The translations under genes and the position numbers were made by a program. Below, in pieces: positions 21,977 through 41,377 of a stretch of DNA of 64,000 bases; the first letter of the stretch is position 1; each line of letters opens with the position of its first letter. Under the pieces are notes generated by a model. The model was given only the letters and a program-made list of their open reading frames with translations, did no database searches and was not told where the DNA came from. The stretch lies in assembly GCF_016632335.1 (NCBI RefSeq), contig NZ_JAEPBG010000009.1:124001-188000 (forward strand), read 5' to 3'. The DNA is from Noviherbaspirillum pedocola. GTDB lineage: Bacteria > Pseudomonadota > Gammaproteobacteria > Burkholderiales > Burkholderiaceae_D.

Positions 21977-22035
21977 AAAAAAAAGCCCGCTACGGGAGCG
22001 GGCGAATCCATCCTTGTTCAGGCTGGAGGAGACAG
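21977..22035 (-). ncRNA. Putative small RNA 1 (anti-SD hairpin plus terminator)
   Basis: A 59-nt unit starting at C22035: CTGTCTCCTCCA, a 7-nt variable part, CAAGGATGGATTCG, then a GC-rich terminator stem (GCCCGCT/AGCGGGC) and eight U. TATAGT (22047 to 22042 on this strand) is a -10 element 6 bp before the proposed 5' end. UCCUCC can pair with GGA(U)GGA through one bulged U, giving a first hairpin that hides an anti-Shine-Dalgarno sequence. A close paralogue of the same length lies at 25476-25534 on the other strand. Conservation of every part except the loop and terminator bases argues for a real RNA. Confidence 0.7.
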
Positions 22036-22180
22036 GGAAGGACTATACACTGTTTCCGCATGTAAATAAAATGCCGTTAGGAAATAATAGCCATCAGTGT
22101 TGCAGATATTGCCGGTCCTGTTAACCAGGACGCTCTGCCCACATGTCGCTGTCGTCCTTGCGCACGCAGGCAGAACGGCA

Positions 22181-22276
22181 TCAGATCTCGTCGCTAATAA
22201 GGCCGGCAGGCAGTTCTTCGGTCTGCGCCGGCGGTGCTTGCCAAGTGTCTTCGGCGGGAATGGTATGGTCGGACAT
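22181..22276 (-). CDS. Small ORF, 31 residues, unknown
   Basis: An ATG at 22276 with a strong ribosome binding site (AGGAGG, 5 bp spacing) opens a 31-codon frame ending TGA at 22181. The peptide is acidic and Pro-rich, starts MSDHTIPAEDTWQAPPAQ and ends ISDEI. TATAGT 30 bp upstream (22311 to 22306) could be its -10; no good -35 was seen. The SD and -10 support expression, but no family is recognised. A leader or RiPP-type precursor is only a speculation, since no modification enzymes adjoin it. A longer overlapping frame on the same strand (22018-22335) lacks comparable signals. Confidence 0.45.
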   Translation of the reverse strand: MSDHTIPAEDTWQAPPAQTEELPAGLISDEI

Positions 22277-22311
22277 GTTGCCTCCTGAAAAAAGTGTACG
22301 CCCGTACTATA

Positions 22312-22618
22312 TCGTTCTCTGATGCGATGCACCATTCATGTAAACCCTTAATCCATGTCGGATAAATCCCGCAAGTATCAAAAAGCATGCTGCGAACGCA
22401 AATAATGCATGTGCATCCGATGCATTAGGCAAGGACTTTGCATTGCTTATGGGAAATAATGTATTTCATTCCGCGAGGAAATTTTTTGCATCCATGCGGA
22501 AATATTCTTCACTGGACCAGGCTGAGCCACGGTGTGAACACAAGCGGAAGGAAATGCGGGGAGGGAAATCTCAATGCCGGCCGCGGCACCATCCACGGTG
22601 CCGGGACCGGCGCGGCGT
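22312..22618. other. Intergenic region with low GC
   Basis: AT-richer than its surroundings. It includes repeats of ATGCAT/TGCAT type around 22395-22445 and no frame with a plausible start and SD. It separates the small ORF from the end of phaB. No terminator was recognised for phaB. Confidence 0.4.
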
Positions 22619-23359
22619 TCAGAACATATGCTGACCGCCGTTGATGGCAATGTTGGCGCCGGTGAGGAAGGCGGCCTCGTCCGAGGCGAGATAGGCAACC
22701 AGACCGGCTACTTCCTCCGGCTTGCCCAGGCGTGCCATCGGAATCTGCGGAATGATCTTGGTGTCGAGCACTTCCTGCGGGATTGCCATCACCATTTTTG
22801 TCCCAATATAGCCCGGCGAAATGGTGTTCACCGTCACGCCACGCCGCGCCACCTCCAGCGCCAGCGCCTTGGTAAAGCCATGCATGCCGGCCTTGGCCGC
22901 CGAATAGTTGGTCTGCCCGAACGCGCCTTTCTGGCCATTGACCGAAGAGATATTGATGATGCGGCCCCAGCCGCGCTCGGTCATGCCATCGCACAGCGGC
23001 TTGGTCATGTTGAACACCGAGTCCAGGTTGGTGCGGATCACCGCATCCCAGGCGCTCTTGTCCATCTTCTTGAAGGTCGTGTCGCGCGTGATGCCGGCGT
23101 TGTTGACCAGGACATCGACCGGGCCGAGATCGGCTGTGATCTGCGCGATGCATGCCTGCGCTGAGTCGTAGTCGGCCACGTCGCACGGATAAGCGTGTAT
23201 GCGGTGGCCGCGGCGTTCCATGTCGGCCAGCCATTCCTGGCTGCGGGTATTGCTCGGCGAATGGGTGGTCGCCACGTCGAAGCCCAGCGCCGCCATTCTG
23301 GCGCAGATCGCTTCGCCGAGTCCGCCCATGCCGCCGGTAACAAGTGCAATGCGTGCCAT
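22619..23359 (-). CDS. phaB: Acetoacetyl-CoA reductase (PhaB-type SDR)
   Basis: NADPH-dependent reduction of acetoacetyl-CoA to (R)-3-hydroxybutyryl-CoA for polyhydroxybutyrate. The 246 residues show the Rossmann motif VTGGMGGLGEAI, NNAGITRD, the catalytic Ser in ISSVNGQKGAFGQ, YSAAK with the catalytic Tyr/Lys, and the C-terminus INGGQHMF. The SVNGQKG-FGQTNYS segment is typical of PhaB rather than FabG. The frame is open upstream to 23512, but ATG 23359 with AAGGAAAGGA just upstream is the right start. No phaA or phaC is nearby. Confidence 0.92.
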   Translation of the reverse strand: MARIALVTGGMGGLGEAICARMAALGFDVATTHSPSNTRSQEWLADMERRGHRIHAYPCDVADYDSAQACIAQITADLGPVDVLVNNAGITRDTTFKKMDKSAWDAVIRTNLDSVFNMTKPLCDGMTERGWGRIINISSVNGQKGAFGQTNYSAAKAGMHGFTKALALEVARRGVTVNTISPGYIGTKMVMAIPQEVLDTKIIPQIPMARLGKPEEVAGLVAYLASDEAAFLTGANIAINGGQHMF

Positions 23360-23508
23360 GATTTTTCCTTTCCTTAAAGGTCTTTTCGAAAATGGCGCTG
23401 TATCGCGCCTCCTGTCTGGCGCCCTGGTAAGGGCGTCCTCCTGCCGGGGGATGGCGGCAGGATCAAACATCAAGATCGCCGAAGCTGCGGTGACGCTTTT
23501 GGCCAGGC

Positions 23509-23943
23509 TCAAACGCGCTCAAGCTCCAGCAGGAACTGGATGTTGCGATCGGTCTTCACCACCCGCACCGAGCCGCGCACGGCGACCATGCCGCCATCGC
23601 GCGCGGCGATGCGCATCGGTAGCGGGCGGGTGGAATGGAAGCTGGCATAGGCGAGGTTGTAGCCCATGGTGCTGGCATGCAAGGGAAGCGAGGGCAGCAG
23701 GGCTTTCACCGGAATTCCGCAAACTTCATTGGGCAGCCGTTGCGCCAGTTCGGCAATGGCATTGCTGCAGCGCAGAATCGCGCCACGCATGTCGAGAAGA
23801 ATGGTGCCCAGGATGGCTCTTGCGCCATGGGCTGCGCTGGTGCTCGCGCTCGCTACTGCACATATGACGGCGATGTCCTTGCCGCTGGCGCTGCTACCAG
23901 CCTCGGCGCTGCCATGCTCGGCCGCGCGTACTGCCTGTTTCAT
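23509..23943 (-). CDS. Hypothetical protein with a PAS-like segment
   Basis: A 144-residue protein. After an Ala/Ser-rich N-terminus, GTILLDMRGAILRCSNAIAE resembles the opening strands of a PAS domain. The middle part is LPLHASTMGYNLAYASFHS, and the C-terminus (RGSVRVVKTDRNIQFLLELE) is strand-like. ATG 23943 is preferred over an in-frame TTG 12 codons upstream, with AGGAG nearby. It is transcribed toward phaB, 149 bp away. A regulatory role is only suggested by the PAS-like look. Confidence 0.55.
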   Translation of the reverse strand: MKQAVRAAEHGSAEAGSSASGKDIAVICAVASASTSAAHGARAILGTILLDMRGAILRCSNAIAELAQRLPNEVCGIPVKALLPSLPLHASTMGYNLAYASFHSTRPLPMRIAARDGGMVAVRGSVRVVKTDRNIQFLLELERV

Positions 23944-24239
23944 CAAACCCTGCTCCTGGAAATTCGGCGGCAATCGCAATGCGCTGCCATCGTTGTTGCT
24001 ATAAATGCAACGACATTATCGATGTCGCAGCGGTCTGCGCATATCGGCGAAATGCCAGACTTGTGTCACGAATCGTTGATAAATTGTTATAGGATTTTTC
24101 CGAATCCGGCTTAGCTTGCGTATTTGCGTTCCGCAATTCCTTGAGCGAACGACACTCCTACCGCTCTTTGTGCGGCTATCATTCGTCCCATCTGCATGCA
24201 GTACGTGTAGCCGCTTTCGTTTTTCCTCAGGAACTCTCA

Positions 24240-25346
24240 ATGCTCGGTCTTGATTTGCGTGTCGCAAGAATCGTCTGGACGGTTTTCGTCATCGCGTTGC
24301 TGTTATTCGTGATTTACTCCGTTCGGCAAACCGTGCTGGTCGTGACCTTTGCCATCTTCTTCAGCTACCTGGTCTATCCCTTGATCGAACTCGCGGAGCG
24401 CAGCCGCCCGGCACGGATTCCGCGCATGGTGTCGGTCGGCGCGGTGTTTGTGCTGGTGCTGCTGATCATCTCGATCGCCGGCAGCCTGTTCGGCGCGCAA
24501 ATTGCCGAAGAAGCGAGCGGGCTGAGTCAGCAGTTGCCCAAGCAGCTGGATGTGCAAAAGATGGCGGCGCATGTTCCGCTGCCGGAGTTTCTGCAGCCGC
24601 AGCGCGCCCGGATGGTCGGCTTCATCAATGAGCAGATACATTCCGGCACTTCGCAGGCGGTACCGTTCGCGCAGAAGTTCGGCTTGGGCGTCATGCATGC
24701 GGCGACCAACCTGATCTACCTGGTGCTGATCCCGATACTGAGCTTTCTGCTGATCAAGGAAGCGCCTGCCTGGCGCCGAGCGCTGCTGGCCTGGCTCGGG
24801 CGGCGCAGCAGCCCGAAATGGGCCGGCATCATCAGCGATCTCGACACGCTCATGGCCGGTTATGTCCGCGCGCTTCTGATCCTGTCGCTGGCGACCTTCG
24901 TCGTCTACAGCATTGTGTTTTCCCTGCTCGGCGTGCCCTATGCGCTGTTGCTCGGCGTGAGCGCCGGTCTCCTGGAAGTCATTCCCTTCGCCGGTCCGCT
25001 GATCGCAGCGGGCGTAGTGCTGGTGGTGTCCGGATTCAGCGGTTTCGCGCACCTGCTGTGGCTGGTACTGTTCATCGCGGCGTATCGCATCTTCCAGGAC
25101 TATGTGCTCAATCCCTACCTGATGAACAAGGGCCTGGAAGTCTCGCCGCTGCTGGTGATCATCGGCCTGCTGGCCGGCGATCAGCTCGGCGGGGTGGTCG
25201 GCATTTTCCTCGCGGTGCCGGTCATGGCGGCGATCAAGGTGATATTCACGCGTCTGAACGACACCCCGCCGGCACAGGTGGCTGCGGGCGACAGGGCGCT
25301 CGAGCGGAAAAACCAGGAATTGATGCGCAAAACGGGAGAGGGGTGA
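24240..25346 (+). CDS. AI-2E family transporter (PerM-like permease)
   Basis: A 368-residue inner-membrane protein with about eight transmembrane helices. The central soluble loop (about 110-165, LSQQLPKQLDVQKM) and the second half of packed helices (VPYALLLGVSAGLLEVIPFAGPL and YVLNPYLMNKGLEVSPL) are hallmarks of the family. Members have been linked to quorum-signal export or Na+/H+ antiport; the substrate here is unknown. The open frame begins at 24141, but ATG 24240 with CAGGAAC upstream fits the first helix. Confidence 0.88.
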   Translation: MLGLDLRVARIVWTVFVIALLLFVIYSVRQTVLVVTFAIFFSYLVYPLIELAERSRPARIPRMVSVGAVFVLVLLIISIAGSLFGAQIAEEASGLSQQLPKQLDVQKMAAHVPLPEFLQPQRARMVGFINEQIHSGTSQAVPFAQKFGLGVMHAATNLIYLVLIPILSFLLIKEAPAWRRALLAWLGRRSSPKWAGIISDLDTLMAGYVRALLILSLATFVVYSIVFSLLGVPYALLLGVSAGLLEVIPFAGPLIAAGVVLVVSGFSGFAHLLWLVLFIAAYRIFQDYVLNPYLMNKGLEVSPLLVIIGLLAGDQLGGVVGIFLAVPVMAAIKVIFTRLNDTPPAQVAAGDRALERKNQELMRKTGEG

Positions 25347-25475
25347 ATGCTGTCCACGGGCATGCGAAAAATCACGTGTATCGGAACGGCGCCGACAGCA
25401 ACATGCGCCATCGTCCTACCGCGCATGGCGACATTGTCCGACTGCGCGAGCTCATGCCTGCCCTTATGCTTTGAA

Positions 25476-25534
25476 CTGTCTCCTCCACTCCCCCAAGGAT
25501 GGATTCGGCCCGCCGGCAACGGCGGGCTTTTTTT
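25476..25534 (+). ncRNA. Putative small RNA 2 (anti-SD hairpin plus terminator)
   Basis: Paralogue of the unit at 21977-22035: CTGTCTCCTCCA at 25476, a variable 6-nt C-rich part, CAAGGATGGATTCG, then terminator stem GCCCGCCG/CGGCGGGC (25508-25527) and seven T. It is also 59 nt long. TATGCT (25465-25470) is a -10 element 5 bp upstream. UCCUCC pairs with GGA(U)GGA as in copy 1. It stands alone between the AI-2E permease gene and a small membrane-protein gene, in the same orientation as both, so readthrough from the permease gene is the alternative. Confidence 0.7.
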
Positions 25535-25596
25535 CTTTGCGGACGAACCCTGTCACGCTGAAGCAGCCTAATCCATGTCATTCACAGTGCCGATCC

Positions 25597-26578: not shown

Positions 26579-26719
26579 TCTTGTGCCTTGTGGAAAGTCG
26601 GATGCGGCAGAGCATACACCGCGATGCGGTTTGCTCGCGCGCGGCGAGCAATCGCGCCGTCTGGCTTAAGATGCCCGGGCTGCGATCTTCGCACCGAATA
26701 ATCATTTAAAGGAGACATC

Positions 26720-27832
26720 ATGGCAGGTCCCCTCTCCGGCTTGAAAGTTATCGAAATGGCTGGTCTCGGCCCGGCACCATTCTGCGCCATGCTGCTGGCC
26801 GACATGGGCGCCGAGGTGCTGCGCATCGAACGCCCGGGAAAGGCCGATGTGACCGGCGCTTCGGGGCCGCATGACGTGCTGGCGCGCAATCGGACGTCGT
26901 TGGCGCTGGACTTGAAGCAGCCGGCGGCGATCGAAGCGCTGCTTGGCGCGGTCGACCGCGCCGACGCCATCATCGAAGGCTTTCGTCCGGGTGTGATGGA
27001 ACGCCTCGGTCTCGGACCGGAGCCCTGCCTGCAGCGCAATCCGCGCCTGGTGTACGGCCGCATGACCGGCTGGGGCCAGGACGGGCCGCTGGCCAAGGCG
27101 CCGGGCCATGACATCAACTACATCGCCATCAGCGGCGCGCTGCATGCGATCGGACGGCCAGGCGAGCCGCCGGTGGTGCCGTTGAATTACATCGGCGACT
27201 TTGGCGGCGGCGGCATGCTGCTTGCCTTCGGTCTGGTATGCGCCTTGCTCCAGGCAAAGGAGAGCGGACGAGGGCAGGTGGTCGATGCGGCGATGACCGA
27301 CGGTGCGGCGCTGCTGTCGGCAATGATGTACGGCATGAAGGCTGCCGGCGCGCTATCGAACCAGCGTGGCGAGAACTGGCTCGACGGCGGCGCGCATTTC
27401 TACGGCACCTATGCCTGCGCCGACGGCAAATATGTGGCGATCGGCTCGCTGGAGCCGCAGTTCTATGCGCGCCTGCTGCAGCTGGTCGGCGTTGATGAAA
27501 TCGAATTCGCCAGCCAGCATGATGCGCAATCCTGGCCACCGCTCAAGGCCAGGCTGGCCGAAGTCTTTCGCGGCAAGACACGCGATGAATGGTGCGCGCT
27601 GATGGAAGGCAGCGAGGCTTGCTTCGCGCCGGTGCTCGACTGGGACGAAGCGCCGCGCCATGCGCACAATGTCGCGCGTGGCACGTTCATCGACATCGCA
27701 GGTGTGACGCAGCCCGCGCCAGCGCCTCGCTTTTCGGCCACCCCTGCCGCCATGCCCGGGCCGGCGCGCTCAATTTCCACCGACCCGCTGCAATTCCTGG
27801 CCGCATGGAGCCACGGCAAAGCAGGCACATAA
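26720..27832 (+). CDS. Alpha-methylacyl-CoA racemase-type CaiB/BaiF CoA-transferase family protein
   Basis: A family III CoA-transferase fold protein of 370 residues. Three segments match the AMACR active site: GHDINYIA (His), [11 protein letters not shown] (Asp) and IGSLEPQFY (Glu). This favours epimerisation of 2-methylacyl-CoA over CoA transfer. AAAGGAGA at 26707-26714 supports the ATG at 26720. It is a single gene, divergent from the Tat protein gene. A role in branched-chain or methyl-branched lipid breakdown is inferred. Confidence 0.9.
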
Positions 27833-41107: not shown

Positions 41108-41377
41108 TGAGGCGAGGAGGGCGTGAGGCAAAAGTCCGACATGATAGCGGCTGCCCGGGATTGGCGCTTTGATGGGCCGCGTGCTTGCCCGTTGATGGCA
41201 GCTCGTCTTCATGCCGGACTTCAGGGCATTCCGTGCCACGTGTGCCGCTTGCCTGCACTCCGGATAGCTATACTGCGGACTTGCATTTCCAGAACAAACA
41301 TAACGAGGAGACACACGCATGCCTTTCCTGCCGAGCAAAGCGGCTCGCTATCGCCATGTTTCAGGCGGTCCTCAGTC

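Follow-up and report, generated by a model that had tools for sequence, protein, structure and literature searches.

What the two closely similar 59-nucleotide (nt) repeats in a stretch of Noviherbaspirillum pedocola DNA are, how their products might act and what might switch them on are the questions raised by this locus. The stretch, referred to below as the window, comprises 64,000 nt (assembly GCF_016632335.1, contig NZ_JAEPBG010000009.1, positions 124,001 to 188,000), and positions given below are those of the window. Copy 1 lies on the minus strand at 22035-21977 and copy 2 on the plus strand at 25476-25534. The reading that we consider probable is that the repeats encode paralogous small RNAs (sRNAs) of the kind of Rfam RF02278 whose open 5' seed would act as a brake on ribosome binding sites (RBSs), about half of the copies in the genome being controlled by a LysR protein of the LeuO/BsrA kind through a double AT-N11-AT operator.

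Two sRNA genes of a known kind and their fold

An original prediction, made from the letters of the window, had described both units as paralogous sRNA genes, and the positions and strands given there proved exact. The pattern formed by the shared 12- and 14-nt boxes, CTGTCTCCTCCA-N6-7-CAAGGATGGATTCG, occurs twice in the window and in none of 100 dinucleotide-preserving shuffles. The -10 hexamers predicted 5 to 6 bp before the first base were found as TATAGT, 6 bp ahead of the first C of copy 1 (22042-22047, minus strand), and TATGCT, 5 bp ahead of that of copy 2 (25465-25470, plus strand); a scan with the sigma-70 consensus found a complete -35/-10 pair at neither copy. Both units also end, as had been stated, in a GC-rich hairpin and a T run. 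The terminator of copy 1 (22003-21977) has a 7-bp stem at 22003-21985 and that of copy 2 (25507-25534) a 9-bp stem at 25507-25528. Four terminator-like sites were found in the 3.8 kb scanned versus 3.6 in shuffled sequence, so that the count carries no evidence; position and strength do, and among the four sites these two stand out by the greatest length of stem and T run.

A scan against all of Rfam assigned copy 2 to RF02278, the Betaproteobacteria toxic sRNA family, also called double-hairpin RNAs (match at 25477-25535, 52.1 bits, above the gathering cut-off of 50). Copy 1 scored 43.4 bits (E 5.5e-7) in the genome-wide search, which is under the same cut-off, and it is therefore filed as a paralogue of copy 2 and not as a member of the family by the Rfam threshold. 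Both copies align with model positions 1-64 in full, and both have the 5' box GUCUCCUC, hairpin 1 and the terminator hairpin with its U run. The idea of a single family of sRNA genes able to pair with Shine-Dalgarno (SD) sequences was thus borne out, and the Rfam search that the prediction had proposed settled which family it is: a new family is ruled out, and the sRNAs belong to a known kind.

Conservation, on which the prediction had staked itself, extends well beyond the two copies. RF02278 was matched in 179 of 195 genomes of the same family-level group, with 0 to 21 copies per genome. The N. pedocola genome has the most, 21 matches at E<=0.001, ten of them above the Rfam cut-off; the next highest count is 18 (G023). 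This search scored 25 candidates per genome, and rescoring three genomes with 150 candidates added at most one copy. For the analysis of individual copies, 20 of the 21 own copies at E<=0.001 were used, with the weak matches of at most 32.5 bits (L029-L038) excluded, together with the 30 of 38 congeneric copies that had loci and 28 copies from other genera. The last were found among the 30 best-scoring of the 195-genome search and are not a random draw. The 3' flank of copy 2 is homologous to those of one copy in each of three congeners (L108, L109 and L112), which marks copy 2 as an old, syntenic copy. For copy 1, no syntenic partner was found among the 30 congeneric copies.

Some features of the copies were noted in passing. 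At G000:C6:25640-25891 two copies (L010, L012) stand in tandem, 193 bp from start to start, with an operator of the type described below at one only, and pairs about 216-218 bp apart occur in other genera (G080, G022). In nine own copies (L009-L011, L013-L015, L017, L019 and L021) the bodies, terminators included, are on average 94% identical, while the 80-bp flanks are only 68% (upstream) and 58% (downstream) identical. Concerted evolution was considered for these nine copies and is suggestive at most, because constraint on the body explains the 94% identity as well. Two small-genome genera, g7 (G006, G049, G073, G093) and g41 (G041, G068, G090), have neither an sRNA match nor a match to the LysR protein introduced below.

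The fold of the RNA decides whether it could act directly. The original prediction had UCCUCC paired with GGA-U-GGA through a bulged U, which would hide the anti-SD motif in hairpin 1 until some trigger opened it. This pairing can indeed be drawn in both window copies, and in 37 of 110 sequences a 4-bp helix could also be made from nt 5, which speaks for such a fold and against an open seed. The set of 110 distinct sequences was obtained after removal of 25 of 135 as duplicates or for want of the 5' box. The pairing is not the predicted fold, however: at -4.9 (copy 1) and -5.0 kcal/mol (copy 2) it is less stable than the predicted 5' folds at -8.1 and -6.4 kcal/mol, respectively, and its GGA-N-GGA partner is present in just 33 of the 110 relatives. 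A helix of at least 4 bp beginning at nt 8 can be formed in 107 of the 110, and its stem changes in a compensatory manner (UCCA/UGGA, UCUAU/AUAGA, UCCAAU/AUUGGA, UCCACC/GGUGGA, UCCGUUC/GAAUGGA). On average, nt 1-7 are predicted to pair with a probability of 0.00-0.03 and nt 8-11 with one of 0.82-0.97, and for nt 2-7 the predicted mean stays below 0.3 in all 110, as befits a single-stranded anti-SD seed. The weaker energies and the covariation in favour of the nt-8 helix speak against the sequestered form, which was rejected, and a mechanism that depends on a trigger is accordingly highly improbable.

Covariation shows the fold computationally, with a 5' seed that is predicted to be open. From energy and comparison together, UGUCUCC is the open seed, and hairpin 1, which has a CU-rich loop, rests on the second UCC; the 5' half of the anti-SD sequence should need no opening step, since UGUCUCC is predicted to be exposed and the helix starts at nt 8. 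In copy 1 the seed, nt 1-7, lies at 22028-22034 and is predicted to be unpaired, as in its relatives, and hairpin 1 (nt 8-28) occupies 22007-22027 in the minimum free energy fold. In copy 2 the seed is at 25477-25483, with a predicted pairing probability of at most about 0.2 at nt 5-7, and hairpin 1, with a C-rich loop, is at 25484-25503 in the corresponding fold.

An operator common to sRNA promoters and a LysR gene

Upstream of the RNAs, the module ATTCA-N8-AT-N6-TAT-N4-A-N5-AATT was found from -72 to -35 in 39 of the 78 aligned copies from the own genome, congeners and other genera. These 39 promoters were chosen by the first and last blocks only, and the AT dinucleotides at -59/-58 and -50/-49, which were not used in the selection, are invariant among them. 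The position of the module is likewise fixed, at -72 or -71 from the first base. It can be read as two AT-N11-AT boxes 22 bp apart (-72 to -58 and -50 to -36), each containing T-N11-A. This is the signature of LysR-type regulators, the nod box and the AT-N11-AT box of BysR included (PMC5002191, PMC10100970).

At a tolerance of three mismatches the operator is present in 49 of 78 sRNA promoters (10 of 20 in the own genome, 18 of 30 in the genus and 21 of 28 in other genera) and the reversed motif in none of the 78. Random 100-mers of the own genome contained the operator in 2 of 20000 cases and all four AT dinucleotides also in 2 of 20000, the random set being unmatched for the AT-richness of promoters. 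Reversed patterns and random 100-mers were used as controls because shuffling of the letters was judged too lenient: exchanging like letters restores the motif (the lowest mismatch count was 2-5 in 60 shuffles). Sites with at most one mismatch number 14 in the own genome and 9, 12 and 10 in three congeners, 45 in total, versus none for the reversed pattern. A fetched RF02278 copy follows at the -72 or -71 distance at 26 of the 45 sites (10 of 14 in the own genome), and several of the other sites lie ahead of small-protein genes. A pattern scan of named genomes, a biased sample since copies were chosen by their -10 region, scored 53 promoters and gave one mismatch-free operator (L158); the promoters of Herbaspirillum, Collimonas and Undibacterium in that scan have 3-5 mismatches. 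The operators of the nod box and of NahR were also considered as a match. The spacing is similar, and a literature search for both together with LysR gave nothing.

Not all copies carry this module. In a second promoter class CCTAC (or CTTAC) stands a fixed distance before GACT, at about -62 to -33. Copy 2 belongs to it (CCTAC ... CCGACT, 25415-25443, plus strand, at -62 to -34), as do the syntenic copies L108, L109 and L112 of the three congeners, which share the arrangement, and L114, L115, L090, L103 and L022. The pattern was made after looking at the promoters and has no chance expectation behind it. A third upstream type, TTGCG/TGCG(C/T)(T/C)GCAC at about -30 to -95, was seen at L024, L104, L110 and L111, which are syntenic, and at L040, L060 and L062. 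It is reminiscent of PhaR-type sites.

In three congeners the operator is flanked on one side by a LysR gene and on the other by a divergent gene, which encodes a protein of about 100 amino acids. The LysR protein has the Pfam domains HTH_1 and LysR_substrate, and its best NCBIfam models are BsrA and LeuO, both below cut-off. Matches at E<=1e-100 were found in 122 of 145 genomes and 34 of 44 genera. The 39 best-scoring loci were examined, of which one at a contig end (L265) could not be scored. An operator with at most two mismatches, within 450 bp and pointing away from the LysR gene, is present at 35 of the 38 scorable loci, and the reversed motif at none. The motif had been derived from the sRNA promoters, independently of the LysR loci, and nearly all of these loci come from other genomes. 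When the three congeners in which the LysR gene was first noticed are left aside, the operator is found at 32 of 35 loci.

The divergent protein of about 100 amino acids (L237-L275; FKPLLxGxxRAxLLxxxPRxS...SQPNLAAELRxLASRG) stands behind the operator in many loci; one member was tested and gave no Pfam or NCBIfam hit. Among five operator-linked small proteins, Pfam gave no hit for four and a sub-threshold DUF6895 for the fifth, and neither of the two tested against NCBIfam had a hit. Farther on, an RF02278-like box follows about 500 nt behind the operator and the small-protein gene in four of four Noviherbaspirillum genomes, and 10 of the 35 loci have a GTCTCCTC box at a distance of 510-536 or about 810 nt from the operator. 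Because operator-linked small proteins and anti-SD RNAs occur together, a system like that of DUF1127/CcaF1, which we presume to be linked to cuckoo RNAs, was considered. It was discarded, as no DUF1127 hit was obtained in the operator-linked small proteins.

The LysR gene and the number of sRNA copies go together. LysR-positive genomes have a mean of 6.5 copies and at least three in 108 of 122 cases; LysR-negative genomes have a mean of 1.0 and at least three in 2 of 23. With one genome per genus, at least three copies are found in 27 of 32 LysR-positive versus 2 of 12 negative genomes, and in 26 of 31 versus 2 of 7 (p 0.008) when only genomes of at least 3 Mb are counted. Two LysR-negative genomes have six (G037) and four copies (G046), and other genomes of their genera have the gene. 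The operator itself is present at the best copy of 15 of 17 LysR-positive and 0 of 5 LysR-negative genomes (Fisher p 8e-4), a test that omitted 6 of 28 family loci from genomes outside the LysR sample. Among named species, the LysR gene is present together with 3-4 of the four AT dinucleotides in Herbaspirillum huttiense, Noviherbaspirillum malthae, Collimonas humicola and Undibacterium umbellatum. In Burkholderia aenigmatica, B. cepacia, B. pseudomultivorans and a Pandoraea no LysR match at E<=1e-60 was obtained, and 1-2 of the four dinucleotides are present.

Taken from sequence comparison, these results make the LysR protein a good candidate for the controller of the sRNAs. The possibility was considered that it is the orthologue of BysR (Bcal3178), since the motif of BysR from DNA affinity purification sequencing (DAP-seq) is AT-N11-AT and the lengths are similar. 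Three Burkholderia genomes, for which 150 of 183-258 candidates were scored, lent this no support, since none had a match at E<=1e-60. What is new in this work is the operator, together with its association with the LysR gene. Among the titles listed in a literature search none concerned a LysR regulator of the RF02278 family, though a link made in Kimelman 2012 or Sass 2019, which lay outside it, would have escaped; the word LysR is absent from PMC5688073, PMC10987360 and PMC11722255.

Mode of action and competing explanations

On the reading that we favour, each unit would be a gene for an RNA of about 59 nt whose 5' UGUCUCC is exposed and is followed by a small hairpin, with a CU-rich loop, and by an intrinsic terminator. 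We infer that the RNAs are expressed in N. pedocola, that they repress RBSs and that the LysR protein has a part in their control. The exposed 5' end and the loop would pair with GGAG-type RBSs and stop the translation of many mRNAs, mostly mRNAs for nutrient uptake and catabolism, as is partly shown in relatives. A regulator of the LeuO/BsrA type would bind the double AT-N11-AT operator at -72 to -35 and so control about half of the copies. Copy 1 has a degenerate form of this operator at 22070-22107 on the minus strand, and copy 2 belongs to the second promoter class. The presence of about twenty genes could be explained if their differing promoters let several signals feed one common brake. 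A wider proposal, which we put forward tentatively and with somewhat less than even confidence, is that the LysR protein is dedicated to a regulon that consists for the most part of numerous, nearly identical anti-SD sRNA genes and includes the conserved protein of about 100 amino acids. One factor would then set the dose of the translation brake by gene copy number, with 0 to 21 brake genes wired per lineage.

A preference of the seed for particular targets is suggested at most. Across the genome the pattern AGGAGACA-N1-9-ATG is matched 127 times, some sites entering the count with two ATGs, and the reversed pattern 4 times, an enrichment for much of which the SD sequence alone accounts. In 464 kb of own sequence, GGAGACA is in start position in 9 of 29 occurrences, compared with 198 of 1930 for all GGAGNNN. 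The ACA of this motif is only weakly enriched (9 versus 4.6 expected position by position, p ~0.045, uncorrected for 64 triplets), and the triplet CGC is more enriched at starts (14 versus 4.7 expected). Two GGAGACA starts are found in the window, at 26711-26722 and 41307-41321, versus about one by chance, so that the candidate target among them is a lead only. It is the GGAGACATC-ATG start at 26711-26722 on the plus strand, complementary to the exposed seed, which belongs to the open reading frame 26720-27832 and lies 1.2 kb from copy 2.

Several observations weigh against the proposed control by the LysR protein. In the window itself, the operator of copy 1 keeps all four AT dinucleotides of AT-N11-AT-N7-AT-N11-AT, with five mismatches to the full consensus, and is 1 nt out of register, copy 2 has none, and a good operator is absent from 10 of the 20 own copies. 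The N. pedocola genome has no direct orthologue of the LysR protein; its nearest homologues are 67% (C23:157463) and 56% (C34:47669) identical. At the own site C2:82459 the operator, the small protein and the sRNA are kept, the LysR gene of the studied group is absent, and a different LysR gene ends about 950 bp upstream. The three scorable LysR loci without an operator are L240, L271 and the 67% homologue just named (L248), upstream of which the operator was not found. Mismatch counts in the named species overlap (4-5 in LysR-positive, 5-9 in negative), and only the AT skeleton separates them. Two LysR-positive genomes have operator-free best copies (L060, L061), and one (G101) has the LysR gene and no sRNA match. 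Finally, phylogeny confounds the association between the gene and the number of copies, the counts being uncorrected for kinship. Since there is no direct orthologue, a paralogue would have to serve as the regulator in N. pedocola. The 67% homologue has nearly the same helix-turn-helix region and may for that reason read the same operator.

Another explanation is that the operator belongs to a different regulator and that the LysR gene is merely one of its targets, the LysR protein having no control over the sRNAs. Twelve exact operators are kept in N. pedocola without the direct orthologue, the three Burkholderia genomes lack a match to the studied LysR protein at E<=1e-60, and AT-N11-AT, reported by DAP-seq for BysR of a Burkholderia (PMC10100970), is a general LysR-type half-site. 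Against this stand the 35 of 38 LysR loci accompanied by the operator and the joint absence of gene and operator. Divergent autoregulated operators are, moreover, the usual arrangement of LysR genes. We regard control by another regulator as unlikely, though it deserves to be taken seriously.

Two further explanations concern the copies themselves. It is improbable that the copies are RNAs of 3' untranslated regions freed by RNase E, with fortuitous -10 boxes. A precedent exists in S17S, which is processed from S17L (PMC11722255), and the RF02278-like boxes some 500 nt behind the operator and small-protein gene in all four Noviherbaspirillum genomes would suit such an origin; the fixed operator position in 39 promoters and the -10-like hexamers close upstream of both window copies argue for promoters of their own. 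The notion that the copies are selfish or addictive toxic RNAs, spread and kept through toxicity and without a regulatory role, is very improbable, even though cloned members of the family are inhibitory to E. coli (Kimelman et al., as cited in PMC4603805), the number of copies ranges from 0 to 21, and the nine nearly identical bodies within divergent flanks belong to operator-bearing own copies. Synteny between species, along with a conserved promoter class, is seen for several copies, and the operator in the promoters is conserved; both speak against selfish elements.

Comparison with known systems

In relatives, short RNAs of this family are expressed, as seen by Northern blot or RNA-seq (PMC4603805, PMC5688073, PMC7011215). 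Burkholderia cenocepacia has four members, ncS03, ncS05, ncS27 and ncS62, which are double hairpins of 57-67 nt, ncS27 being 92 nt and having a shorter form that arises by processing. Three members were measured and are raised in biofilms and glucose medium, the predicted targets overlap RBSs, and three of the four share an upstream motif that the text does not identify (PMC4603805, PMC5688073). Overexpression of ncS27 slows growth (PMC5688073), and its role has been summarised as metabolic shutdown upon nutrient loss (PMC10987360). The cause of accumulation of the double-hairpin RNAs was called unknown (PMC5688073). The pairing of operator and LysR gene makes the control of this accumulation testable with one protein and one deletion. 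In addition, the high copy number makes N. pedocola a good case for asking why a genome keeps twenty versions of one anti-SD RNA, and the corrected fold, which exposes the 5' half of the anti-SD sequence, means that the RNA should act without a trigger.

The window copies agree with the B. cenocepacia RNAs in sequence, length, the two hairpins, the CU-rich unpaired stretches complementary to RBSs and their multicopy nature (PMC4603805, PMC5688073). They differ in number, 3-5 copies per genome in Burkholderia (PMC5688073) and 21 here, and in their promoters, those of Burkholderia having 1-2 of the four operator AT dinucleotides; three Burkholderia genomes have no LysR match at E<=1e-60. Herbaspirillum seropedicae, a closer relative, has four RF02278 members, Hsnc059, Hsnc063, Hsnc086 and Hsnc107, for which targeting of RBSs was suggested; these RNAs are 93-115 nt long, with RF02278 in the 3' part (PMC7011215).

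The fold found here, with an open 5' seed and a CU-rich loop, agrees with the two single-stranded sites of S17S of Bordetella pertussis, the 5' end (Site 1) and the first loop (Site 2). S17S also pairs with RBSs and directly represses BP2158, and its homology to the toxic sRNA family was noted by the authors, although it was not similarly toxic. In contrast to the window copies, which have close upstream promoters, S17S is cut out of a 190-nt precursor by RNase E; it is Hfq-dependent and is raised in the Bvg+ mode (PMC11722255). The NmsR RNAs of Neisseria meningitidis (named in PMC5688073) are, by their description, likewise sibling sRNAs with two unpaired CU-rich stretches complementary to the RBSs of metabolic genes. 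They differ in being a tandem pair with targets in the tricarboxylic acid cycle. With known LysR operators such as the nod box and that of BysR, the operator described here shares the two T-N11-A (AT-N11-AT) boxes, in this case 22 bp apart, and the location upstream of a promoter. It is set apart by standing ahead of sRNA genes and by the accompanying LysR protein, which scores below the cut-offs of both BsrA and LeuO.

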